64,000 nucleotides of DNA from Alphaproteobacteria bacterium (lineage in GTDB: Bacteria; Pseudomonadota; Alphaproteobacteria; UBA8366; Aestuariispiraceae), in contig JASJDC010000007.1 in assembly GCA_030065235.1 (NCBI GenBank), positions 124,001 to 188,000 on the forward strand. Direction: 5' to 3'. The translations under genes were made by a program, and so were the position numbers. Position 1 is the first letter of the stretch; each line of letters starts with the position of its first letter. A model generated the notes under the pieces. That model made no database searches. It was not told where the DNA came from and saw only the letters and a list, made by a program, of their open reading frames with translations. Positions 31,090-54,197 of this stretch are shown here, piece by piece.

Positions 31090-33516
31090 TTACGCACGCA
31101 TGCGCGCGCCGGCGGGATCGAAGGGCGGGTCCGCAAGGATCGAGGCCGGGCGCATCTCGCCCATAATCTCGATCTCGAAACTGTCGGTCGATCCGGCCAG
31201 CGCGCTCGGCACATAGCCCAGAGCGACCGACTTGCCGATATGGTGGGCGTAGCCGCCGGAGGTGACCCAACCGACCACCGAGCCGTTTTGGAACACCGGT
31301 TCGTCATTGATCACATCCGCGTCCGCCGCCTCGATATCGAACAGCACCAGTTTCCGGGTCGGGCCGTCCTGTTTCTCGCGCATCGCGGCCTCGCGGCCGA
31401 TGAAGTCGTTCTTTTTCAGATCGACAAACCGGTCCATCCCGGCTTCGAACGGGCCGTAGATCGGCCGGTACTCGGTCGCCCAACTGCCGAAACCCTTCTC
31501 GAGGCTCAGCGACCGCAGGGCGCGCAGGCCGAATAGTTTCAGGTTGAATGCTTCGCCGGCCTCCAGGAGCGCATCGAACAGCCTATTCTGGAACTCCGCC
31601 TTGACCCAGATCTCATAGCCCAGATCGCCGGTGAAGCTGATGCGGCCGACCAGGGCCGGGACCATGCCGATCGCCATGTGTTTGATATCGAGGAACTTGA
31701 ACGCGTCACCGGAGACGTCCTGATCGGCGAGCGTCTCCAGCACCTTACGCGCGTTCGGCCCGGCCAGCGCCAGCCCGCACAGCTCGAGCCCCAACGCCCG
31801 GACCGCGACGCCGGTTTCGGGCAAATGCGCCTCGAACCAGCGCATATGATAGGTCTCGGCCGGGCCGGAGCCGAAGATGTAAAAGGTTTCGCCGTCCAGT
31901 TTCGCCAGCGTGAAATCCCCGATCACCTTGCCATGCTCGTTCAGCATCGGGGTGAGCAGCATCCTTCCGGTGCGCGGCGTCTTGTTCGCCATCAGCCGGC
32001 TCAGCCAGGCTTCCGCGTCGGGTCCTGTCACTTCGTATTTGGCGAAACCGGAAGCGTCGCACAGGCCGACGGCGGTCCGCACCGCCTCGCATTCCGCCTT
32101 CACCGCCTCGAAGGCGTTGGACCGATAATAGGTCACGTTCTCTTCCGGCGCCTTTCCTTCGGGCGCGAACCAGAGCGGGTATTCCAGACCATAGGCGGCG
32201 CCCATCACCGCGTTCCGGGCGACCAGCTTGTCATAGATCGGCGTCGTGCGCAGCGGGCGCGCCGCCGGCAATTCCTCGTTCGGATAGGTGACCTGGAAGC
32301 GGCGCGAATAGTTCTCCCGCACCTTCGCGTTCGTGTAGGCCATGGTCGTCCAATCGCCGAACCGCGCAACGTCCATGCCCCAGACATCGAAGCCCGGATC
32401 ACCGTCGACCATCCATTGCGCCAGAGCCAGACCGACGCCGCCGCCCTGGCTGAAGCCGGCCATCACCCCGCAGGCGCACCAGAAATTCTTCAGCCCGCGC
32501 ACGGGTCCGATCAGCGGATTGCCGTCGGGCGCGAAGGTGAAGGGGCCGTTGATCACTTGCTTGATGCCGGCCCGCCCATAGGCCGGGAAATGCTCGAATC
32601 CGACCTCCAGCGAGGGCGCGATCCGATCGAGATCGGCCTGCAGCAATTCATGGCCGAAATCCCAGGGCGTCTGTTTCTCGGACCAGGGCACGCAGGCCTT
32701 CTCATAGGTGCCCATCAACATGCCGCGGCCTTCCTGGCGGGTGTAAATCTCGCCCTCGAAATCGACCGCGTGCATCACCTCTTTGCCGGTCTCTTCATTA
32801 TAGGCCACGACCTCCGGCATTTCTTCGGTCAGGAGATAATGGTGCTCCATCGCCAACACCGGCAGTTCGAGCCCGACCATCCGGCCGACCTCGCGCGCCC
32901 ATAGACCGCCCGCGTTCACCACATGCTCGGCATGGATAGTTCCCTGTTCGGTCACCACGTCCCAGCTGCCGTCCGGCCGCGGTTGTAGGTCTGTCACCGG
33001 GTTGCGCAGATAGATCTCGGCGCCGCCGATTCGGGCCGATTTGGCGTAGGCGTGGGTCGTGCCTGACGGGTCGAGATGTCCGTCCAGCGGATCGTAGAGC
33101 GCGCCGATGAAATGCTTCTTATCCATCAGCGGATGCATGGCCGCCGCCTCGTCGGCGCTGATGATCTCCAGATCCAGGCCGAGATTGCGGCCCTTCGCCC
33201 GCATCACTTTCAGGAAATCCATCCGTTCGCGTGTGCCGGCGAGCATGACCCCGCCGGTCTGATGGACGCCGCAGGCCTGACCGGAGATTTCCTCGATCTC
33301 GTTATAGAGACCGATTGTATAGCTTTGCAGCTTAGCGACATTCGGGTCGCCGTTGAGCGTGTGGAATCCGCCCGCCGCATGCCAGGTCGAACCGGAGGTC
33401 AATTCCGAGCGCTCGATCAGGCAGATGTCTTTCCAACCGGCCTTGGTCAAATGGTAGAGAACGCTGCAGCCGACGACGCCGCCGCCGATGACGGCGACCT
33501 GAACATGCGATTTCAT
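31090..33516 (-). CDS. FAD-dependent dehydrogenase with GcvT domain (DMGDH/sarcosine-dehydrogenase-like)
   Basis: The product is 808 aa from the ATG at 33516, preceded by GGGAGGAT. The N-terminal half is a DAO-type FAD domain: VAVIGGGVVGCSVLYHL dinucleotide loop, and STWHAAGG, whose His46 corresponds to the histidine that carries FAD covalently in dimethylglycine dehydrogenase. The C-terminal half (about residues 430-800) is a GcvT-like tetrahydrofolate domain (FAKYEVTGPDAEAWLSRL, DLGYEIWVKAEF, GLRALRSLSLEKGFGSW). Such enzymes demethylate N-methyl compounds and pass formaldehyde to tetrahydrofolate. A second protein of this type is encoded at 42095. The actual substrate (dimethylglycine, sarcosine, a betaine product) is not decided by sequence. 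Confidence 0.9.
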   Translation of the reverse strand: MKSHVQVAVIGGGVVGCSVLYHLTKAGWKDICLIERSELTSGSTWHAAGGFHTLNGDPNVAKLQSYTIGLYNEIEEISGQACGVHQTGGVMLAGTRERMDFLKVMRAKGRNLGLDLEIISADEAAAMHPLMDKKHFIGALYDPLDGHLDPSGTTHAYAKSARIGGAEIYLRNPVTDLQPRPDGSWDVVTEQGTIHAEHVVNAGGLWAREVGRMVGLELPVLAMEHHYLLTEEMPEVVAYNEETGKEVMHAVDFEGEIYTRQEGRGMLMGTYEKACVPWSEKQTPWDFGHELLQADLDRIAPSLEVGFEHFPAYGRAGIKQVINGPFTFAPDGNPLIGPVRGLKNFWCACGVMAGFSQGGGVGLALAQWMVDGDPGFDVWGMDVARFGDWTTMAYTNAKVRENYSRRFQVTYPNEELPAARPLRTTPIYDKLVARNAVMGAAYGLEYPLWFAPEGKAPEENVTYYRSNAFEAVKAECEAVRTAVGLCDASGFAKYEVTGPDAEAWLSRLMANKTPRTGRMLLTPMLNEHGKVIGDFTLAKLDGETFYIFGSGPAETYHMRWFEAHLPETGVAVRALGLELCGLALAGPNARKVLETLADQDVSGDAFKFLDIKHMAIGMVPALVGRISFTGDLGYEIWVKAEFQNRLFDALLEAGEAFNLKLFGLRALRSLSLEKGFGSWATEYRPIYGPFEAGMDRFVDLKKNDFIGREAAMREKQDGPTRKLVLFDIEAADADVINDEPVFQNGSVVGWVTSGGYAHHIGKSVALGYVPSALAGSTDSFEIEIMGEMRPASILADPPFDPAGARMRA

Positions 33517-33756
33517 CACGGATCCTCCCAATAGAACGCCCGGCGCGAGCCTATTTAGCCAGACGCCCGTCCGATCGATGGGCACAGAGTGTCCGGTCGC
33601 CGCCCGGTGTGAAAACCTCAAATGCGACAAAACCTGCTCAACCCTCGCCGACCGGTTCGGCGCTGCGGGAAGGAAGGCTCGAATCGCGCTAGTCAGGCCG
33701 ACATCGCGCGCGGCGAAGGGGCTTGGCGCGTCGCACTGGGAATCAGCGCCGGAACC

Positions 33757-38643: not shown

Positions 38644-40239
38644 CTAGACATTGCTGTCAGGCGTCGCCGCCTTGCGCTGCGCGACGAAATCGCGAACCGC
38701 TTCATCGACCTCGACAGGAATAGCAGGCGCCTCATAACTGGCCAACAGGTTGGCGACGGACTCGGCCGCGCGCGCGGAGATATCCTTCGCGCCGTCCGCC
38801 TGCCATTGCTCGAAGGAATTATTGTCGGCCAGGGGCGACCGGTAGAACGCGTCTTCGAAATTCGCCTGGGTATGGGCGCAGCCGAGGAAATGCGCGCCGG
38901 GCCCGACCTCGCGCAAGGCGTCCAATCCTTGGCCGTTCTCGCTCAGGTCCGGCCCTTCGAGCAGGCGCGCGATCATCGCGCATTGATCGGCGTCCATTAC
39001 GAACTTCTCGTAGCCCATCGCGAGCCCGCCTTCGAGCCAACCCGCCGCGTGCAGCATGAAATTCACCCCGGCCAGAGCGGCGTTCTGCAATGTGTTCGCA
39101 GCTTCGTAAGCGGCTTGCGCGTCAGGGACCTTTGAGGCGCACAGGCCGCCGCCCGACCGGAAGGGCACGCCAAGGCGGCGCGCCAGCTGCGCCGCGCCAT
39201 AGAGCACCAGGGTCGGCTCTGGCGTGCCGAAGGTTGGGGCCCCGGACTGCATTGAGATTGAGGACGCGAACGTGCCGAAAACGACCGGCGCGCCAGGCCG
39301 GACCAATTGGGTCAGGGCGACGCCGCTCATCGCTTCGGCCAGGATCTGCGCCAGGGTGCCGGCGACCGTGACCGGGCTCATGGCGCCGGCCAGGATGAAG
39401 GGGGAGATTACGGTCGCTTGATTGTTCCGCGCATAGACTTTCAACGCGCCGAGCATCGTATCGTCCCAGACCATCGGCGAATTGGCGTTGATCAGATTGA
39501 TCACCACGCAGTTCTGATCGACGAAATCGGCGCCGAAGACCCGCTTGCAGATCTCGACCGTGTCTTCCGCACGCTCCGGCGCGGTGACCGATCCCATGAA
39601 GGGTTTGTCGCTGTAGCGGATATGGCTGTACACCATGTCCAGATGCCGTTTGTTCACCGGCAGATCGACCGGCTCGCATAGCGTGCCGCCGGAATGATGC
39701 AAGCCCGGCGACAGATAGGCGAGCTTCACGAAATTCCGGAAATCCTCGATCGTGGCGTAGCGGCGGCCTTCCGCTTGCGAGCGGATGAAGGGCGGGCCAT
39801 AGGCCGGGACCATCACGCAATGCGGTCCGCCGATTTCGACGCTGCGCGCCGGATTGCGGGCGTATTGCGTGAACTGTTTCGGCGCCGAGTTTTGGATGAT
39901 TTCGCGCAACATGCCTTTTTCGAACCGCACGCGTTGCCCATCGATTTTGGCGCCGGCGGCGCGCCAGATATCCAGCGTCTCGGGATCGTCGCGGAATTCG
40001 ATGCCGATATCCGCCAGGACGGTCTCCGCGTTGGCCTCTATAGTCGCGAGTTGTTCTTCGTCGAAAGGGTCGAAGGTCGGAATCTTGCGGGTGATAAAGG
40101 CGGCTGAAGCGCCGCCTTGTTGGGCGCGGGTCGCCTGCCGCGCGGCCCGTCCGCCGCCGCGACGTCCGCGCCGGCCTGCGGACGTCTCCGCAGCGCTTGC
40201 GGCCGAGGTCTCGGGGCTTGGAGTTGATGCTGGGGTCAT
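38644..40239 (-). CDS. Trimethylamine methyltransferase (MttB-like) family protein
   Basis: The product is 531 aa from the ATG at 40239 (GGAG six bases upstream; a TTG 12 bases earlier is in frame but less likely). It belongs to the MttB family of corrinoid-dependent methyltransferases, TIM-barrel enzymes that demethylate quaternary amines such as glycine betaine or trimethylamine. After a low-complexity Ala/Ser/Arg/Gly N-terminus, the barrel begins near FDPFDEEQLATIEANAETVLADIGIEF. There is no in-frame amber codon, so it is a non-pyrrolysine type, as in MtgB. No corrinoid protein or activase is in the window. Its neighbours (deacylase, DMT exporter) and the FAD-GcvT genes support a role in N-methyl compound turnover, still inference. 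Confidence 0.87.
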   Translation of the reverse strand: MTPASTPSPETSAASAAETSAGRRGRRGGGRAARQATRAQQGGASAAFITRKIPTFDPFDEEQLATIEANAETVLADIGIEFRDDPETLDIWRAAGAKIDGQRVRFEKGMLREIIQNSAPKQFTQYARNPARSVEIGGPHCVMVPAYGPPFIRSQAEGRRYATIEDFRNFVKLAYLSPGLHHSGGTLCEPVDLPVNKRHLDMVYSHIRYSDKPFMGSVTAPERAEDTVEICKRVFGADFVDQNCVVINLINANSPMVWDDTMLGALKVYARNNQATVISPFILAGAMSPVTVAGTLAQILAEAMSGVALTQLVRPGAPVVFGTFASSISMQSGAPTFGTPEPTLVLYGAAQLARRLGVPFRSGGGLCASKVPDAQAAYEAANTLQNAALAGVNFMLHAAGWLEGGLAMGYEKFVMDADQCAMIARLLEGPDLSENGQGLDALREVGPGAHFLGCAHTQANFEDAFYRSPLADNNSFEQWQADGAKDISARAAESVANLLASYEAPAIPVEVDEAVRDFVAQRKAATPDSNV

Positions 40240-41273: not shown

Positions 41274-41792
41274 TCACTCGGGACGGCGCCACGGGCCTGG
41301 GATGTTGGCGACGAGGAAACGGATGACTTCCTTCCGGTCGGCGTCGAAGAGCGGCAAGATCAGCCGTGTCCAAGACGCCACGGTCACAGCGGGCGGCGCG
41401 ACATGCTGCGAATGGAGCGGCTGCTGCGCGACCCAGGCCAGTCGGTAGCAGGCGTTGAAGAAGATGGCGATTTCCGGACTGGTCGGCACTTCCCAGGTGC
41501 TCTTGCCCGTCAGGTCGAAACCCGCCCGCTCCGCGATCCCAGCGCCGTAATAGCGGTAACGGTAGCTCCACCCTTCCTCTTCGATATCCAGCAGCATCAG
41601 ATAGCGGGCGGCGTCGCTGAAATCGATCAGATTGAAGTCCGAGGCGAGCGGCCGCCCCTCTGCATCCAGCGTCCGCCACTGACCATAGACCGAGATCACT
41701 GTCTCATCGACCAGCAACTCATAGACCGGGTTGAGCACGACACGCGGCGGCGACGCCAGAGCCTCCGGCAGCATGTCCGACAATTCTGTCAT
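41274..41792 (-). CDS. PAS-domain protein (PAS_5 type)
   Basis: The product is 172 aa from the ATG at 41792. The open frame extends upstream, and a GTG at 41852 would add 20 plausible residues, so the start is uncertain. The bulk is one PAS domain of the short alphaproteobacterial type: RPLASDFNLIDFSDAARYLMLLDIEEEGWSYRYRYYGAGIAERAGFDLTG, in parts, then WTRLILPLFDADRKEVIRFLVAN. There is no output domain, so it works by binding a ligand or partner. It is divergent from the FAD-GcvT gene at 42095 and 7 bases upstream of the exporter. Confidence 0.78.
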   Translation of the reverse strand: MTELSDMLPEALASPPRVVLNPVYELLVDETVISVYGQWRTLDAEGRPLASDFNLIDFSDAARYLMLLDIEEEGWSYRYRYYGAGIAERAGFDLTGKSTWEVPTSPEIAIFFNACYRLAWVAQQPLHSQHVAPPAVTVASWTRLILPLFDADRKEVIRFLVANIPGPWRRPE

Positions 41793-42094
41793 GTGGCCGC
41801 CTTCGATCAGTTCGACGGCGGCCTCGATCTCGCATCTTGTCGCGTCGTCCACGGGGCGGGTCTGTTGTCCTTCGTCACTCTCGGGCCGGCCGCGCGGTCC
41901 ATCGGGCCCGTTTCGGGCGGCGCGTTTGCGCCGGCTTTCGGTCGTTGTGGGAAAAGCCGCCGCGGCCGAATTGCCGGAAAAGGAAGTCGTTGCCGCGCCG
42001 TCGTTTAGCAGCCGCAAACGACGCGCGCTGACCGGGAGTATAGACGCCGGCTCTTTTGGCTCAAGGGGGCCAGCGGGAAATGGGGAAGACGCAT
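41793..42094. other. Divergent intergenic region (PAS gene / FAD-GcvT gene)
   Basis: These 302 bases separate the two divergent starts. Both frames run open through part of it (one on each strand), but only the GTG extension of the PAS gene looks possibly coding. The region must contain both promoters. I see no riboswitch-like structure and no clear operator. Confidence 0.4.
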
Positions 42095-44551
42095 ATGGCG
42101 ATGAAGTCTCACGCGCGGGCGGTGGTGATCGGCGGCGGAGTGGTCGGGGTCTCGACCCTGTACCACTTGGCCAAGATGGGCTGGTCGGACGTTGTGCTGA
42201 TCGAGCGCAAGGAGCTGACATCCGGCGTCACCTGGCACGCCGCCGGCCTGTTGCCGCTCTTCAATATGAGCTACTCGGTCGGTCAGATTCACAAATACTC
42301 GGTCAATCTCTACAAGACCCTTGAGGAAGAGACCGGCCAGGATGTCGGCCTGCGCGCGGTCAGCAATATCCGGTTGGCGACCACGCAGGACCGGATGGAT
42401 GAATACCGTCAATATGCCGGCGTCGCCCAAACGATCGGCGTCGCGGTCAATTTCCTCACTCCCGATGAGGTTCTCGCACTCTGGCCGTTGGCCTCGAAGG
42501 ACGGGCTGATCGGCGCGATCCAACAACCCGAGGACGGCTATATTCAACCGGCCGATCTGACCCAGGCGCTGGCGATCGGCGCGCGGGCGCGCGGGGCGGA
42601 GATCTACCGAAACACCTGCGTTGCCGGGATCAGCCGGACGCCGGGCGGCGAATGGCGGGTGGCCACAGATCAAGGCGAGATCACCTGTGAGCATATTGTC
42701 TCGGCGACCGGCTGTTTCGCCCGCCAGACCGGCGCGATGCTGGGTCTCGACGTGCCGGTCATTCCTGTCGAGCACCAATATATCGTCACCGAGCCGCATC
42801 CGAAGATCGAAGAACGCCGGCGCCAGGGAATGCCCGAGATGGGCGTGCTGCGGGAATCCGACGGCTCCTGGTATATGCGCGAGGAGAATGGCGGGCTGAT
42901 CCTCGGCCCCTACGAGGTCGGCGCCCCGGCGGTCTATGTCGACGGGCCGAGCGCGGATTGCGAGTACGAACTGTTCCAGGAGGATCTGGAGCGGCTTGAG
43001 CCGCATATCGAAAGCGCGATGCATCGCGTGCCGATTTTCGCCGAGGCGGGCGTCAAGAAAGTCTATAACGGCGCCATCCCCTATACGCCGGACGGCAGTC
43101 CGATCATCGGCCCGGCCTGGGACCTGCCGAATGTCTGGCTGAACGAGGGCCACAGTTTCGGCATCACCGCCGCCGGCGGCGCCGGCTGGCAATTGGCCGA
43201 ATGGATCGTGAATGGCGAACCGACCATCGATATGCTGGGCGTCGATCCGCGCCGTTTCGGCGAATATGCGGGCCAGTCCTATTTGATCGACAAGAATGAA
43301 GAGGCCTACGCCAACGTCTTCACCGTTCATTACCCGGATGAGGAAAGGCCGGCGGCGCGACCGCTGCGGACCGCGCCCTGCTACGACCGGATGAAGGCGC
43401 TGGGGGCCGTCTTCGGCCAGAAGTTCGGTTGGGAGCGGCCGAATTGGTTCGCGCCGGACGGCGTACCGGCCGAGGAAGATTGGTCCTTCCGCCGCTCCGC
43501 CTGGTTCCCGCATGTGGTCAACGAAGCGCGGAACGTGGCTGAGAATGTCGGCGTTCTCGACATGACGGCCTTTGCGAAATGTCGGGTCTCCGGCCCCGGC
43601 GCCGAGACGTTTCTGGACGAGTTGGTGGCGAATAAGCTGCCAAAATCGGTCGGCCGCGTGGGTCTGTGCCACGCCCTGACCGAAAGCGGCGGGGTCATGT
43701 CGGAATTCACGATCCTGCGTGAGGCGCCGACGCCCGACGGCGATCCCAGCTTCTACCTGGTCTCCGCCGGCGCGCTGCAGCGGCTCGACCATGATTGGCT
43801 GAAGAAAGCCATGCCGAGAGACGGCGGCGTCCAGTTTCAGAACCTGACCAACGCGATGGGCGTCCTGGTCGTGGCCGGGCCGAAATCGCGGACGCTGATG
43901 GAACGGGTCAGCCGCGACGATTTCTCGAGTGACGGTTTCAAATGGCTCACCGGGCGCTGGGTCAATGTCGGATTGGCGCCGTCTTTGGCCGTGCGCGTGA
44001 ATTTCGTCGGGGAGTTGGGCTGGGAGCTGCATCACCCGATCGAATATCAGAACCACATTTTCGATCGCTTGATCCAAGCCGGGGGCGACCTGGGCCTGAA
44101 GCCATTCGGTATTCGCGCCATGGACATGTTGCGCATTGAAAAGTCGTACCGGATGATCGGGACTGAGCTCTCGATCGAATACTCCGCCTATGAGAGCAGG
44201 CTGGATCGATTCGTCCATCCCGACAAAGGCGCCTTCAAGGGCCGCGACGCGGTGGTGCGAGACCGCGAGGCGGGCCCGAAAAACACGTTGGTGACCTTGG
44301 AGGTGCATGATGTCGAGGAGGCGGACGCTCTGGGCAACAACCCGGTGACGCTGGACGGCGCGGTCATCGGCCGCGCCACCTCCGGCGCTTATGGGCCGCG
44401 TCTCGGCAAGTCGATGGCCCTGGCGATGATCGATACGGCCCACGCCAAGGTGGGCGCCGCATTCGAGATGGACATCTTGGGCCGGATCCACAAGGTGACG
44501 GTCCTGCCGGAGAGCCCCTACGATCCTGACAATGAACGGCTGAGAGCCTGA
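42095..44551 (+). CDS. FAD-dependent dehydrogenase with GcvT domain (second DMGDH/sarcosine-dehydrogenase-like)
   Basis: The product is 818 aa from the ATG at 42095, chosen for the GGGGAAG six bases upstream and by analogy with the related gene at 31090-33516, whose N-terminus (MKSH) aligns. It has the same plan: VVIGGGVVGVSTLYHL FAD loop, VTWHAAG with His48 as the likely covalent FAD site, and a C-terminal GcvT half (CRVSGPGAETFLDELVANKLP, GELGWELHHPIEYQ, MDMLRIEKSYRMIGTELS). The product of demethylation would be 5,10-methylene-tetrahydrofolate. It is clearly diverged from its paralogue (for example LLPLFNMSYSVGQ vs GFHTLNGDPNVAK), so the two probably act on different methylated amines. Confidence 0.9.
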   Translation: MAMKSHARAVVIGGGVVGVSTLYHLAKMGWSDVVLIERKELTSGVTWHAAGLLPLFNMSYSVGQIHKYSVNLYKTLEEETGQDVGLRAVSNIRLATTQDRMDEYRQYAGVAQTIGVAVNFLTPDEVLALWPLASKDGLIGAIQQPEDGYIQPADLTQALAIGARARGAEIYRNTCVAGISRTPGGEWRVATDQGEITCEHIVSATGCFARQTGAMLGLDVPVIPVEHQYIVTEPHPKIEERRRQGMPEMGVLRESDGSWYMREENGGLILGPYEVGAPAVYVDGPSADCEYELFQEDLERLEPHIESAMHRVPIFAEAGVKKVYNGAIPYTPDGSPIIGPAWDLPNVWLNEGHSFGITAAGGAGWQLAEWIVNGEPTIDMLGVDPRRFGEYAGQSYLIDKNEEAYANVFTVHYPDEERPAARPLRTAPCYDRMKALGAVFGQKFGWERPNWFAPDGVPAEEDWSFRRSAWFPHVVNEARNVAENVGVLDMTAFAKCRVSGPGAETFLDELVANKLPKSVGRVGLCHALTESGGVMSEFTILREAPTPDGDPSFYLVSAGALQRLDHDWLKKAMPRDGGVQFQNLTNAMGVLVVAGPKSRTLMERVSRDDFSSDGFKWLTGRWVNVGLAPSLAVRVNFVGELGWELHHPIEYQNHIFDRLIQAGGDLGLKPFGIRAMDMLRIEKSYRMIGTELSIEYSAYESRLDRFVHPDKGAFKGRDAVVRDREAGPKNTLVTLEVHDVEEADALGNNPVTLDGAVIGRATSGAYGPRLGKSMALAMIDTAHAKVGAAFEMDILGRIHKVTVLPESPYDPDNERLRA

Positions 44552-44687: not shown

Positions 44688-44990
44688 ATGGACTATTCAA
44701 TCCATAGTGACCCGGAAACCTGCAGGATTGTCTTCAGCGGTAAGTTTGGGTTCTCCGACAGCGCCAATATTCGCAAACTGATTGGAAGTCTCGCCGACCA
44801 TAAAGGCAAGGAGGTGGTGCTCGATCTGACCGATCTGGAGGCGATCGATTCCGCCGGCCTCGGAATGATCATCCTGTTGAACGACGCCGCTCAGGAGAAA
44901 GAACTGCGAATTCGCCTCACCGGCGCCGGCGGGCAAGTTCGGAAAATGCTCGATATCTCTAACTTCGCCGAACTCATGGCGATCGACTAG
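44688..44990 (+). CDS. STAS-domain anti-sigma factor antagonist
   Basis: The product is 100 aa, a single STAS domain: CRIVFSGKFGFSDSANIRKLIGSL, then EVVLDLTDLEAIDSAGLGMIILLNDAA. The phosphorylation site is Ser55 in DSAGLG. These proteins bind a serine kinase/anti-sigma factor when dephosphorylated. The next gene, 54 bases downstream, encodes both a candidate kinase and a PP2C phosphatase for it. Upstream 136 bases contain a short hairpin GGTCTC-TGTC-GAGACC without a T-tract. It acts in the cytoplasm. Confidence 0.93.
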   Translation: MDYSIHSDPETCRIVFSGKFGFSDSANIRKLIGSLADHKGKEVVLDLTDLEAIDSAGLGMIILLNDAAQEKELRIRLTGAGGQVRKMLDISNFAELMAID

Positions 44991-45044
44991 GCGCCGTTCG
45001 GCCTGGGATCGCCGGACAGTCCCGATGACTGCGGCCCCAAGACG

Positions 45045-47072
45045 ATGACCAACACGGACATACGGGACGCGCCACGGCCGATAGCCCTGATCGACGGCGG
45101 CGTCCATCCTGGGATTTTACGCAGGGTCCAAGCGGACCTGGCCGGTCGCTTGGACCGACGAACCAGCTTGGACCGCAAACGCGACCCGGACGGTTTGATC
45201 AGGATTGGGTCGACGCCCGGGCAAGAGGCCAGCTTGCTGGTCACCCTCTATGCCGACGAGACCGCGTTGAAGGCGATCGCAGCGCCGCCCTTCGTCGGTC
45301 TTTTGGAGGTCGGCCAGGGCGGACAGCTTGACGATGTGTTGCCGCCTTTCGCCGAGCTGCCCGCCTTTTTCTCGGCGATGACATGCCGGACCGCGCTCGC
45401 CGCTGGGACGTCGACACATCTCGCCGCTCAACTCGGGCAAGCCGCTGAACTGTCTGCCGATACGATCAGCGACCTGACGACCTGTCTTCGTGAATTGCTC
45501 GTAAATGCTGTCGTGCATGGCAGTCTGGGATTGACACTCGAACCGGACGATCAATTGGATCAACTGGTCAGTTATTCGCAGCAAGTGGATACTCTCATCG
45601 CTGATCCGGCTCACGGCGATAAACGCGTCTATATCGGCGCCTGGATCGCTGATGGCGCGCTGCATGTGACTGTGGCGGATCAGGGGCCCGGCTTCGTCAT
45701 TGGGGTCGACCCGTCAAGCGCTGAGTCGAGTTGGAGCGAGTCGATCCGCCGCGTCAGCGGCCGCGGGCTGGAGCTGGTCGACGCGCTCGCCCTGTCGCTG
45801 ACGACGGATCCCGCCAGCGCGAGCGTCACATTCTCTTTGCCCGCCGGCCCCGGCCTGGACGATTCTGAAGAGCGCGAGAACGAAGCGCTCCGCGCATCGC
45901 TTCTGCGGTCCGTGAAGGATTGCATCGTGGTTGTCGCCGACGACCAGGAAATCCCCTTGACGCTGATGCGCCTGTTTCTGGAGAGCGCGGGCTATCACAA
46001 TGTCATCGCCGCGCGCGATGGGGCTGAGGCGTTGGAAGCGGTTCTGGAGAATAACGCCGATCTTGCCGTGCTGGATGTCGAAATGCCGGGGCTTTCAGGC
46101 TTCGAGGTCATTGAGCGATTGCGCGCTCGAGCCCGGACCCGCCGGCTGCCGGTGATCGTCGTTAGCGCCCACGGCGACACGGACTTTCGAAACAAGGCGC
46201 TCTCGATCGGCGCGACAGACGTTTTGACCAAACCAATCGTCCAGGAACTGCTGCAAGACCGGGTTCGGCTCCATTTGGAGAACCGGTTAATGATGCGCGA
46301 ACTCAACGCCTTCCGGCGGCGCGTTGGCGAAGAGTTGGACAGCGCGCGTCGCATGCAGCAGGACCTTTTTCCGACGGCGCAGGACGTCGCCGCGGTCAGC
46401 GCATCCTTCGGCGTTCGGCTTTGGACACATCACCGCGCCTCGTCCGAGTTGGGCGGCGATCTCTGGCGCGTCGATCCGCTCGGGCCTGACCGGTTTTCGA
46501 CCTTGTTGGTCGACTTTACCGGGCATGGCGTTGGGTCGGCGTTAAACACGTTTAGGCTGCATACGCTGCTGTCCGAGTTGAACATGCGGGACATGGCTCC
46601 CAGCGCGGTTCTGAGCCTGCTGAACGCTCGCCTCTATGATTTGCTGACGCGAGGACAATTCGCCACGGCGTTCTACGCGGTCATTGACACCAAACGACGC
46701 GAAGTCGTGTATGCGTCGGCGGGCGCGCCGGAGCCGTTTGTGGGGCGCTGGGGCAGCGCCGAGATCGATGTTTGGGAATCCCGCGGCTTGCCGTTGGGCG
46801 TTTCGCAGAAGGCGCGTTACGCCGACCGCACGCTCGCCTTGCCGAAAGGCGGCTATCTGTTCTTGGCGTCAGACGCGTTGGCGGAATCGCCTTTGGCCGA
46901 CTCTCAGCCGCCGTTGGGCGTGGAAGGGGCGGCGGCTCTGGTCGGCGCGGTCGCCGAACAATCGGTGGATCGCGCCAAGAACTCGCCGTTGGAGCGTCTG
47001 CTCGGTCGTTTCTACGATTTGGCGGAGAAGCCGCTGCATGACGACCTAACGCTGCTCTGGATGGAGTTGTAA
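45045..47072 (+). CDS. Serine kinase - receiver - PP2C phosphatase fusion (SypE-like)
   Basis: The product is 675 aa. Order: an N-terminal region (1-120) I cannot assign; an RsbW-like HATPase (about 125-268) with Glu150-x3-Asn154, D212-x-G-x-G216 and G239-x-G241-L; a CheY-type receiver (about 292-415) with phospho-acceptor Asp344 (LDVEMPG) and Lys396; a coiled linker; and a SpoIIE/PP2C domain (about 430-672) with Asp472 (LGGDLW), Asp490 (DFTGHG) and later Asp residues (LASDAL, HDDLTLL). So one polypeptide may phosphorylate and dephosphorylate the upstream STAS protein, switched by the receiver. That order matches Vibrio fischeri SypE. No cognate histidine kinase or sigma factor is adjacent. 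Confidence 0.9.
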   Translation: MTNTDIRDAPRPIALIDGGVHPGILRRVQADLAGRLDRRTSLDRKRDPDGLIRIGSTPGQEASLLVTLYADETALKAIAAPPFVGLLEVGQGGQLDDVLPPFAELPAFFSAMTCRTALAAGTSTHLAAQLGQAAELSADTISDLTTCLRELLVNAVVHGSLGLTLEPDDQLDQLVSYSQQVDTLIADPAHGDKRVYIGAWIADGALHVTVADQGPGFVIGVDPSSAESSWSESIRRVSGRGLELVDALALSLTTDPASASVTFSLPAGPGLDDSEERENEALRASLLRSVKDCIVVVADDQEIPLTLMRLFLESAGYHNVIAARDGAEALEAVLENNADLAVLDVEMPGLSGFEVIERLRARARTRRLPVIVVSAHGDTDFRNKALSIGATDVLTKPIVQELLQDRVRLHLENRLMMRELNAFRRRVGEELDSARRMQQDLFPTAQDVAAVSASFGVRLWTHHRASSELGGDLWRVDPLGPDRFSTLLVDFTGHGVGSALNTFRLHTLLSELNMRDMAPSAVLSLLNARLYDLLTRGQFATAFYAVIDTKRREVVYASAGAPEPFVGRWGSAEIDVWESRGLPLGVSQKARYADRTLALPKGGYLFLASDALAESPLADSQPPLGVEGAAALVGAVAEQSVDRAKNSPLERLLGRFYDLAEKPLHDDLTLLWMEL

Positions 47073-47087: not shown

Positions 47088-48269
47088 TTAGGAAACCACC
47101 GCTTCCCTGACGTCAGGCTGGCCGCGCACCAGCTCTCTTTTCGAATCATAGAAAGGCACGGTGGTTACGGTCGCGCCTCGATCTTCCTGCGGCATGTAGA
47201 CTATGGCGCTCTCATCCAAGCCGACCGGGAAGGGCGCGTAGGCGAGGCCGATATTCTGTTTCAGTCTTGGCGAATAGACGCAGCTGGTCAGAAGACCCAT
47301 GCCATAGGCCCCAAACGAGACCTGCCAGCGATGCTCGTTCACCGGCAGCGGGTCGCCGTCGATGATCAGACCGACCATCTTCTGCGTCACGCCCTCCGCG
47401 TCCATCCGGCGCAACGCGTCGATCGACATGCAGGCGTCCGACGGCAGGTCGAGATCGACCAGGCGCGACAGGCAGACTTCAAAAGGGTTGTTCTCCAGCG
47501 TCATGTCCGCGCCGTAGGAGAGCAGCCCGGCCTCGATCCGGCGGATCGCGTTGGGCGCGCCTGGCTTGGCGCCATACGGCCTGCCCTCCTCAAACAACCG
47601 TTCCCAAAGATCGTCGCCGCGTGTGTGATCAAGCAGGAAAATCTCGTAGCCGCGCTCGTTGCTCCAGCCGGTGCGGGAGATCAGGATCGGCGTCCCGTCC
47701 AACTCGGTCTCCCGGAAATGGAAATATTTCAAATCGTCGATCCAATCGCCGACCAGCCCGCGCATCAGAGCATGGGATTTCGGCCCCTGGATTTGAACCG
47801 GCGAGGCGTCCGGCTCGCTGACAGTCACGTCGAACTCTTTCGCCCAGGCGACGCCCTTGGCCCAGAGCAGCACGTCGCTGTCGGCCAGCGACAGCCAGTA
47901 TTTGTCCGGCGCCAGGCACAGCACGACGGGATCGTTGACGATACCGCCATCCTGATCGCAGAGCAGGGCGTAGCGGGCGCGGCCCGGTTGCAGAGTCGAC
48001 AAATTCCGCGGCGTCAGAAGCTGCGTCAATTTCAGCGCATCCGGCCCTTCGATCTGAACCTGCCGTTCGACCGCCACATCCCAGATCGTGACGGCGTTGA
48101 TGAGGTTCCAGAAATCCGCCTCCGGCCCCTCATACCAGAGCGGCATATACATGTGATTGTATATCGTATAGGCCGTACAGCCATATCGCCGCGTCGCGTC
48201 GAAGAACGGCGATTTGCGCACTCTGGCGCCGAAGGCGGTGGTCGGTTGTTGCGGGGAAGCGTCTGACAT
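47088..48269 (-). CDS. GcvT-family methyltransferase, DmdA-like
   Basis: The product is 393 aa from Met MSDASPQQP at 48269. It is a stand-alone aminomethyltransferase-fold protein. Several blocks match what I know of DmdA, the tetrahydrofolate-dependent DMSP demethylase: TIWDVAVERQVQIEGPDA, LLTPRNLSTL, CDQDGGIVNDPVVL, YWLSLADSDVLLWAKGVAW, PVQIQGPKSHALM and RIEAGLLSYGADMT. The resemblance is to the family and not proof of DMSP use, since DmdA-like paralogues act on other methylated compounds. It is 151 bases after the GNAT gene, same strand, and converges on the SypE-like gene (15 bases). Confidence 0.75.
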   Translation of the reverse strand: MSDASPQQPTTAFGARVRKSPFFDATRRYGCTAYTIYNHMYMPLWYEGPEADFWNLINAVTIWDVAVERQVQIEGPDALKLTQLLTPRNLSTLQPGRARYALLCDQDGGIVNDPVVLCLAPDKYWLSLADSDVLLWAKGVAWAKEFDVTVSEPDASPVQIQGPKSHALMRGLVGDWIDDLKYFHFRETELDGTPILISRTGWSNERGYEIFLLDHTRGDDLWERLFEEGRPYGAKPGAPNAIRRIEAGLLSYGADMTLENNPFEVCLSRLVDLDLPSDACMSIDALRRMDAEGVTQKMVGLIIDGDPLPVNEHRWQVSFGAYGMGLLTSCVYSPRLKQNIGLAYAPFPVGLDESAIVYMPQEDRGATVTTVPFYDSKRELVRGQPDVREAVVS

Positions 48270-48420
48270 GGCGTCTGAACCTTGAACTGACAAAGGCGAG
48301 CCGCTCCATGTCCGCATGCGATAGGAAACGGCGCGACACACTGGCGACGCGGAAGGTCTCTGACTGCCGGGAAAGCGGCGTATTCCTGATCTAATCGCGT
48401 CGTTTTCAGACCGCGTCGAC

Positions 48421-52178: not shown

Positions 52179-54197
52179 TCAGCCAGACGGGACGGCGGCG
52201 GTCTTTTCGGCTTCCGAGAGACGATCGCCGGCGAGCACATGGTCCGGCGGAAAATAGAGCGACACGGTTGTCCCGACGCCTGGCTCGCTGTCGATCCGCA
52301 TTGAGCCGTTGTGCAGTTCGATCAACCCATTGACCAACGGCAGCCCGAGCCCCGTTCCCTCGAAGCTGCGGTTCAGTTTCGAGTCGATCTGCGAGAACGG
52401 GGCCAAAGCGGTGGGTATGTCCTCCTCGGCCATCCCGATGCCAGTGTCCCGCACGGACAGGACGACGCCGCGATCTTTGTCATCCAACTCGGCCGCGATT
52501 GTCACCACGCCGCCCCGTCTTGTGAATTTGATGGCGTTGGACACCAGGTTGATCAGGATCTGGCGGACGATTTGTTCTTCGCTGGAGAGCGTCGGCAAAT
52601 CAGACTGGATCGCCAATTCGAGGGTGACGCCGCTTTGTTCAGCGCGCTGACGCATCAAGCGGATCGTCGCGACCGCGGCCTCGTGAAGGCTGACCGGTTC
52701 GCGATTGATGGTGCGATTGCCGACCTCCGTCTTTGAGAGGTCCAATATGTCATTGATGATGGCCAGCAGATGGCCGCCGCTGTCTCGGATGTCCCCCGCG
52801 AATTCCTTGTATTCCGGCGCGCCGATCGGGCCGTACAACTCGTCCCGTAAAACTTCCGCAAAGCCGATGACGCTGTTCAGCGGCGTGCGCAGCTCATGGC
52901 TCATTTGGGCGATGAACTGTGTTTTGGCGCGGTTCGCCCGTTCCGCTTCTTCCTTGGCGCGCGTGAGTTCATGGCCGCGTTCGACGAATTCGGTGACATC
53001 AAGCTCGATGAGAAGAATCCCGCCCTCGCGGGTTGGACTGGTCCGACGCTCAAACCATCCGTCGCCAACCTTGTATAGGACCTCATTGCGGACCGGTTCG
53101 CGCCAACGCGCCAATTCGGCCTCGATCCAAGCGGCGCGTTCCGCATCATCCTGCATCTCGCGGACGCTCTGCATCCGATCGGAGTGCGCCATTGCGGTGA
53201 GCACGTCTCGCGCGCTGGCCCCCAGCTCGATCTCGTCGTCAGCGCGCGCGTAGACCTCGCGGAACCTTGTGTTCGCAACCACCAGACGGTCGGTCGCGTC
53301 GAACAGCAAAATGCCGACGCGCAATGTATTCACCGCATCCGCCAACCTCGTTTGGGCGAGGGTCTCCTGCCGCTCCCGCTGGACGATATCGGTGACTTCC
53401 CGGCCGACGCCGCGATAACCGAGAAACCGGTTTTCGGCGTCAAAAACAGGCGTGCCGCTGATCGAGATATAACTGATCTTGCGATCGGAAATCAGGGCGG
53501 GATATCGGAAATCGTGAAACGCCTCGCGGTTGGCGATATGAGCCAGCAGCGGCTTGAAGGCGTCGCCCGACGGGTTCAAAGCCAGATCGGCGCGTTTCTT
53601 GCCGATCACGTCTTCCGGCCTGAGGCCCGTATATTCTTCAAGACTGTCGGTGACATCGATATAGACATCGTCGGCGTCGGTTTCCCAGAACCATTCGGAC
53701 GCGGCGGCGGCGAAGTCCGTGAGCCGTTGTTCGCGTTGGATCAAGGCTTCTTCCCGCGCTTTCAATTCCGTGATGTCGACGAAGAGCCCGATCATCCAGT
53801 CGTCTGGGAGGCGTTTCTGATCGTAGCGCAACCAAGTTCCGGACTGGGTCGAGACTTCAATCGGCTCCGGACCGTCAGCGCGCCCGCCCGATGTATTCGG
53901 TGACGCACCCGGATCTGAATAAGGGCGGAAGGCGCTCAGGCCTGCTTCTTGAAATCGGCTCAGCAACGCGGCGTAGGGCGCGCCGACAGCGTCCGCCGCC
54001 GTATCAGGCAGCAATTGACGCACGGTGTCGCTGACATCAACGACGACCCCGTCCGGATCGACGAGAACATAGCCGTAACCGCTGTCGGCGCGCATCAGAA
54101 ACGTCAGCAGGCGCTCCCGCCCCTCCGCCGCGGCGCTTTGTGAAGACGGCGGGGCTGCGGCGGTCGTCGCCGATGGGCTGCTGAGGTCCTTTGTCAT
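52179..54197 (-). CDS. PAS-domain sensor histidine kinase
   Basis: The product is 672 aa. Order: an N-terminal region with PAS-like segments (about 30-140 and 150-290, e.g. AASEWFWETDADDVYIDVTDSLEEYTGL), a third PAS-like block (about 295-415), a dimerisation helix with the phospho-acceptor His433 in AQMSHELRTPLN, and an HATPase_c domain (about 540-660) with N box (NLVSNAIKF), G1 (DTGIGM) and G2 (GTGLGLPLVNGLI). There is no transmembrane segment, so it is cytoplasmic. No response regulator gene is adjacent, making it an orphan kinase; the receiver domain of the SypE-like protein 5 kb away is one candidate partner, without sequence proof. It converges on dgcA. Confidence 0.92.
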   Translation of the reverse strand: MTKDLSSPSATTAAAPPSSQSAAAEGRERLLTFLMRADSGYGYVLVDPDGVVVDVSDTVRQLLPDTAADAVGAPYAALLSRFQEAGLSAFRPYSDPGASPNTSGGRADGPEPIEVSTQSGTWLRYDQKRLPDDWMIGLFVDITELKAREEALIQREQRLTDFAAAASEWFWETDADDVYIDVTDSLEEYTGLRPEDVIGKKRADLALNPSGDAFKPLLAHIANREAFHDFRYPALISDRKISYISISGTPVFDAENRFLGYRGVGREVTDIVQRERQETLAQTRLADAVNTLRVGILLFDATDRLVVANTRFREVYARADDEIELGASARDVLTAMAHSDRMQSVREMQDDAERAAWIEAELARWREPVRNEVLYKVGDGWFERRTSPTREGGILLIELDVTEFVERGHELTRAKEEAERANRAKTQFIAQMSHELRTPLNSVIGFAEVLRDELYGPIGAPEYKEFAGDIRDSGGHLLAIINDILDLSKTEVGNRTINREPVSLHEAAVATIRLMRQRAEQSGVTLELAIQSDLPTLSSEEQIVRQILINLVSNAIKFTRRGGVVTIAAELDDKDRGVVLSVRDTGIGMAEEDIPTALAPFSQIDSKLNRSFEGTGLGLPLVNGLIELHNGSMRIDSEPGVGTTVSLYFPPDHVLAGDRLSEAEKTAAVPSG

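Follow-up and report, generated by a model that had tools for sequence, protein, structure and literature searches.

A pair of adjacent genes in the window (the whole 64,000-nucleotide stretch of alphaproteobacterial DNA analysed here) quite probably encodes a partner switch of two genes, with RbaW and RbaY fused into one bifunctional enzyme that has the neighbouring STAS protein as its substrate. The genes, their domains and a candidate input kinase are as follows.

44688-44990, plus strand: stand-alone STAS protein (RbaV/SypA/RsbV-like), 100 aa; Pfam STAS_2 and STAS; Ser55 is the predicted phospho-acceptor.
44850-44852, plus strand: Ser55 codon of the STAS gene.
45045-47072, plus strand: fused RbaW-RbaY-type protein, 675 aa, with an N-domain, an RsbW-type serine kinase, a receiver and a PP2C domain.
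45045-45365, plus strand: N-terminal region, residues 1-107 of the 675-aa protein, equated with the N-domain of free-standing RbaW-like kinases by profile comparison, alignment and the model of a split homologue.
45366-45845, plus strand: HATPase_c_2/Bergerat kinase domain, residues 108-267, with E150, N154, H158, D212xGxG and GRG at 239-241.
45927-46265, plus strand: receiver domain, residues 295-407, with phospho-acceptor Asp344.
46242-46361, plus strand: continuous helix predicted by the structure model, residues 400-439, linking receiver to phosphatase.
46362-47066, plus strand: SpoIIE-type PP2C domain, with D472, D490, D610 and D666/D667.
52179-54197, minus strand: orphan PAS-HisKA-HATPase histidine kinase, 672 aa, recognised by Pfam; a candidate input, associated with the switch by inference only.

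Both open reading frames exist where the initial annotation, made from the letters alone, had placed them. Their codon-position GC pattern matches that of the window's genes, and chance does not explain them. The 100-residue protein matches STAS_2 (E 2.2e-12) and STAS (E 3.7e-12), and the 675-residue protein matches HATPase_c_2 at residues 124-261 (E 1.2e-10), Response_reg at 295-407 (E 6e-27) and SpoIIE/PP2C at 482-674 (E 4e-35), all above the curated Pfam cut-offs; the domain searches proposed for 45045-47072 thus recovered kinase, receiver and phosphatase alike. The residues named at the outset (Ser55, Glu150, Asn154, Asp212xGxG, Asp344, Asp472 and Asp490) proved correct. Because the two genes share a strand with 54 bases between them, the downstream gene is convergent (its end lies 15 bases beyond the fused gene) and the upstream demethylase gene stops 136 bases before the STAS start, they probably form one small transcription unit. 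No sigma-70-like site turned up near the pair in a promoter scan.

Relatives were collected by genome searches and one scan of genome contigs, and the counts given here describe that sample rather than the whole class; the profiles used to call domains at these loci were built from alignment A1 and the STAS proteins. Ser55 is invariant in the 91 STAS proteins at related loci (91/91), and Glu150, Asn154, His158 and Gly159 are kept in 98/98 ungapped kinase domains. The PP2C aspartates D472, D490, D610 and D667 are each present in 118 to 123 of 125 relatives (Asp472 in 123, Asp490 in 121, Asp667 in 122). The catalytic residues of both ATPase and phosphatase are therefore intact in the window protein, as had been claimed, and near-invariant among its relatives. 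Most relatives also keep a GGR-like motif late in the kinase domain, which the alignment does not find in the window protein, so its kinase may be altered. In the AlphaFold model of the 675-residue protein (mean pLDDT 85) the kinase, receiver and phosphatase domains are confident, the joint between kinase and receiver is weakly predicted (pLDDT 48-67), and residues 400-439 form a single helix between receiver and phosphatase. The best match to the receiver-phosphatase part, in sequence and in fold, is the P. aeruginosa REC-PP2C protein RssB (PDB 3f7a). SpoIIAB and RsbW are among the structures matched by the kinase domain of a split homologue, whose best fold match is LvrC (PDB 9qih; Z 14.0, rmsd 2.6, 149 residues).

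In 22 split loci a kinase gene immediately precedes a REC-PP2C gene that is read from the same strand, which matches the alphaproteobacterial RbaW/RbaY pair; because of this arrangement the 675-residue protein reads as RbaW and RbaY, genes that are neighbours elsewhere, fused into one. Twelve of these 22 junctions overlap by exactly 4 bases, four have gaps of 9-17 bases, and six have longer overlaps whose length hinges on the start codon chosen. Fusions were found 22 times, the window's included. In a tree of REC-PP2C proteins, the window protein falls nearest to split proteins with moderate support (SH-aLRT 86); among the nearest is L009, a locus from the same order as the window genome, where STAS, kinase and REC-PP2C are three genes in a row. 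In a reduced tree its placement among the split relatives has no supported position. A fully supported branch parts the alphaproteobacterial REC-PP2C proteins from the gammaproteobacterial HsbR-like group. The AU test rejects a single fusion clade (p about 1e-4; with 15 fusions set against 42 others, the log-likelihood falls by 110), so by this phylogeny fusion, or fission, occurred more than once. Other arrangements exist among the relatives: the order REC-PP2C-kinase occurs, and REC-kinase-PP2C is found in single proteins at L084, L090, L092, L093 and L099 (Rhodospira, Magnetospirillum and an uncultured relative), which make up one well-supported group. Plasmid records yielded no match at E 1e-30.

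The N-terminus of the fused protein had initially been left unplaced. It is not peculiar to the window protein: profile comparison matches roughly residues 1-107 to the N-terminal region of free-standing RbaW-like kinases (probability 79% for the window protein alone, 93% together with the other fusions), and the alignment also pairs the two. In the model of the split kinase from L077, this N-domain folds as a small unit in which strands and helices alternate, with a pLDDT of about 91 for residues 21-80; in the AlphaFold model of the window protein itself, the region has low confidence. Foldseek aligned the whole split kinase to LvrC, a Leptospira receiver-Bergerat protein, and on structural realignment of the split homologue (VIA-align) the rows cover almost only the kinase part. 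A degenerate receiver was considered for the N-domain but gained no support, with a profile probability under 1%. A second set of RbaW-like kinases (L037, L059, L070, L075 and similar) carries a longer, receiver-like N-terminal region (95.8% by profile comparison) that replaces the small N-domain. Since the N-terminal region is poorly conserved among relatives, I infer that it suits a role in partner recognition or dimerisation rather than catalysis.

Among the relatives found, modules of the alphaproteobacterial RbaV/RbaW/RbaY type come closest. The same three components, namely a STAS protein, a kinase and a REC-PP2C protein, make up the RbaV/RbaW/RbaY system, reported as a VWY operon in Rhodopseudomonas palustris (PMC3999984). 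There as here no sigma gene is adjacent, but RbaW and RbaY are separate proteins there and one protein here. RbaV of R. capsulatus binds RbaW, and mutants in rbaV and in rbaY have a common phenotype, the reverse of that seen in the rbaW mutant; the RbaW of this species, at about 20 kDa, is shorter than the N-domain kinases seen here (PMC3999984). As far as sequence can tell, the window pair is well explained as ordinary in kind and intact: a fused RbaW-RbaY with its RbaV.

The likeness to SypA/SypE that was first drawn is sound in domain order, kinase-receiver-PP2C in one polypeptide, and in the STAS serine, which sits at the equivalent place in SypA, Ser56 (PMC3610818, PMC10120452); that system requires S56 of SypA and, in the SypE kinase domain, N52 (PMC3610818). 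It does not extend to the start of the protein, because the SypE kinase occupies the first ~140 residues and leaves no room for an N-domain (PMC3610818), whereas the window kinase begins near residue 108. Moreover, SypA/SypE is linked to the syp biofilm locus, and the window neighbourhood is not syp-like. At loci taken from 394 genomes of the Pseudoalteromonas order there were no proteins of SypE order, only REC-PP2C-kinase or REC-PP2C forms. HsbA/HsbR of P. aeruginosa and CrsA/CrsR of Shewanella likewise join a STAS protein with a three-domain protein, but the order is REC-PP2C-kinase (PMC6482189), so HsbR does not share the arrangement of the window protein, and gammaproteobacterial proteins of the HsbR order group apart in the tree. 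Other likenesses cover parts of the system: RssB of P. aeruginosa (PDB 3f7a, 3eq2) joins REC to PP2C but has no kinase domain; Rv1364c of M. tuberculosis (PDB 3ke6) holds RsbU and RsbW domains in one chain, but with PP2C before the kinase and no receiver between them; and LvrC of Leptospira (PDB 9qih, PMC13269768) joins a receiver to a Bergerat/RsbW-like domain, but the receiver precedes the kinase-like domain and PP2C is absent. The classic RsbV/RsbW/sigma operon has a linked sigma gene, and none is linked here.

By the initial annotation, its reading would fall if the STAS gene were not conserved beside the fusion in relatives; 12/22 fusions, covering most lineages sampled, have one directly upstream. 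The exception is one clade of small-genome uncultured Alphaproteobacteria, which accounts for nine of the 10 fusions that have no adjacent STAS gene (L022-L026, L046-L048 and L050). Longer stretches around seven of those nine, and around L021, also contained no STAS gene, and so, judging by the stretches read, the pairing is not obligatory in this clade and in L021. In the home genome of the window, which is 98% complete, there is one SpoIIE-family PP2C, one clear RsbW-type kinase (the other HATPase_c_2 matches are mostly of histidine-kinase size) and four STAS_2 matches, of which only the window's is of stand-alone size. For this reason the STAS/fusion pair looks self-contained, with no evident competitor and no separate RsbW-type anti-sigma factor on which it might act. 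The home genome also encodes, at L132, a 270-residue Bergerat-type ATPase with an ENNIHEH motif and without the RsbW HG motif.

The mechanism that I favour is a cycle centred on Ser55 of the STAS protein, with precedents in SypE (PMC3610818), HsbR (PMC6482189) and the genetics of the Rba system (PMC3999984). The RsbW-type kinase would phosphorylate this serine and the C-terminal PP2C domain would take the phosphate off, while a histidine kinase would charge the receiver at Asp344. The charged receiver would most likely act through the long helix 400-439 and favour the phosphatase; it might possibly also restrain the kinase, in line with proposals made for SypE and HsbR. The output would be the phosphorylation state of the STAS protein, with a target outside the locus. 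The initial annotation had the toggle set by an unlinked histidine kinase. A histidine kinase still fits that role, but it need not be wholly unlinked, as the orphan PAS-HisKA-HATPase kinase at 52179-54197 lies 5.1 kb downstream of the fusion, whose receiver is the only one matched in the window. Five relatives have hybrid kinases next to the switch; against the catalytic cores of these, the orphan kinase ranked first among the home-genome kinases compared in four instances and second in the remaining one, although the margins are small and the kinase set incomplete. It is the best local candidate for the input. Separately, a minus-strand open reading frame at 41274-42221, upstream of the STAS gene, gives a sub-threshold PAS_4 match (E 0.023).

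The surroundings of the switch differ between the window and its relatives. In the window there are demethylation genes, encoding an MttB-family methyltransferase (38644-40239), two FAD oxidoreductase-GCV_T (DAO-GCV_T) proteins (31090-33585 and 42080-44551) and a free GCV_T protein (47088-48341), together with a transporter and an acetyltransferase; the statement that no sigma, anti-sigma or biofilm genes are adjacent accordingly stands. CheR, CheD, CheB and receptor genes stand immediately before the STAS gene in many of the split systems and at the fused locus L151. CheD, the clean marker, occurs in 18/63 long-flank loci and also in two loci of the window's own family, L148 and L149; L147, of the same family, has a REC-PP2C gene near Che genes and no STAS gene in the stretch read. 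The Thalassospira fusions have a divergent NtrC-type sigma-54 activator instead of the Che cluster, and the window has neither beside the switch. The home genome does contain five Hpt domains and a single CheB, all away from the switch. The Che neighbourhood of the relatives hints at a chemosensory tie, and no matching description of a chemotaxis-linked partner switch in Alphaproteobacteria was found in the literature searched, whose coverage was incomplete.

What, then, might the switch control? One answer is that its kinase domain serves mainly as an anti-sigma factor, as RsbW does, or CrsR for RpoS, holding an unlinked sigma factor from which the STAS protein displaces it, so that the output would be transcription through sigma release. 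The RsbW/SpoIIAB fold is compatible with this, and the kinase domains of CrsR and HsbR do bind RpoS (PMC6482189), but the genes adjacent to the switch include no sigma factor gene, and for R. capsulatus RbaW no sigma partner was found, the genetics favouring RbaV as the output (PMC3999984); I regard this alternative as conceivable but doubtful. Much the same standing belongs to a switch that regulates chemosensory or motility functions, with the STAS protein acting on a chemosensory or flagellar target. It would account for the many related loci in which the STAS gene follows MCP-CheR-CheD-CheB-receptor genes, and HsbA, which is the STAS protein paired with HsbR, binds FlgM (PMC6482189). However, adjacency is association and does not identify a target, and the window switch sits among demethylase genes while the only CheB of its genome is on another contig.

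Those demethylase genes could themselves be the target, given that the MttB-family protein, both DAO-GCV_T proteins and the GCV_T protein surround the switch, whose role would then be to control methylamine/dimethylglycine-type demethylation. This is very improbable: no relative was seen with such a neighbourhood, the downstream gene is convergent, and a regulatory link was not found. It is also unlikely, though less so, that one enzyme domain is inactive and the protein only a kinase or only a phosphatase. The way its sequence diverges from relatives where the kinase domain ends, together with the low-confidence stretch that joins kinase to receiver, would allow for this, but both sets of catalytic residues are present and near-invariant in the family. 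The bifunctional fused switch acting on its STAS partner thus remains the preferred reading. A broader proposal is more tentative: Alphaproteobacteria may possess a widespread chemosensory-linked switch whose kinase, receiver and phosphatase were fused repeatedly, in varied orders, beside the same STAS gene, with the small undescribed N-domain of the kinase setting partner choice, and the window fusion may be a version freed from the chemosensory neighbourhood, with a non-sigma target.

Four observations stand out: what the N-domain corresponds to, the recurrence of fusion, a single copy that looks self-contained, and the Che neighbourhood in relatives. The target of the STAS output is unknown in several partner switches, SypA and RbaV among them, and a single, self-contained two-gene version makes the search for it simpler, while the CheR-CheD-CheB-receptor neighbourhood of the relatives offers a concrete place to look. 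Finally, the existence of split and fused forms of one module makes the effect of tethering a kinase to its opposing phosphatase testable.
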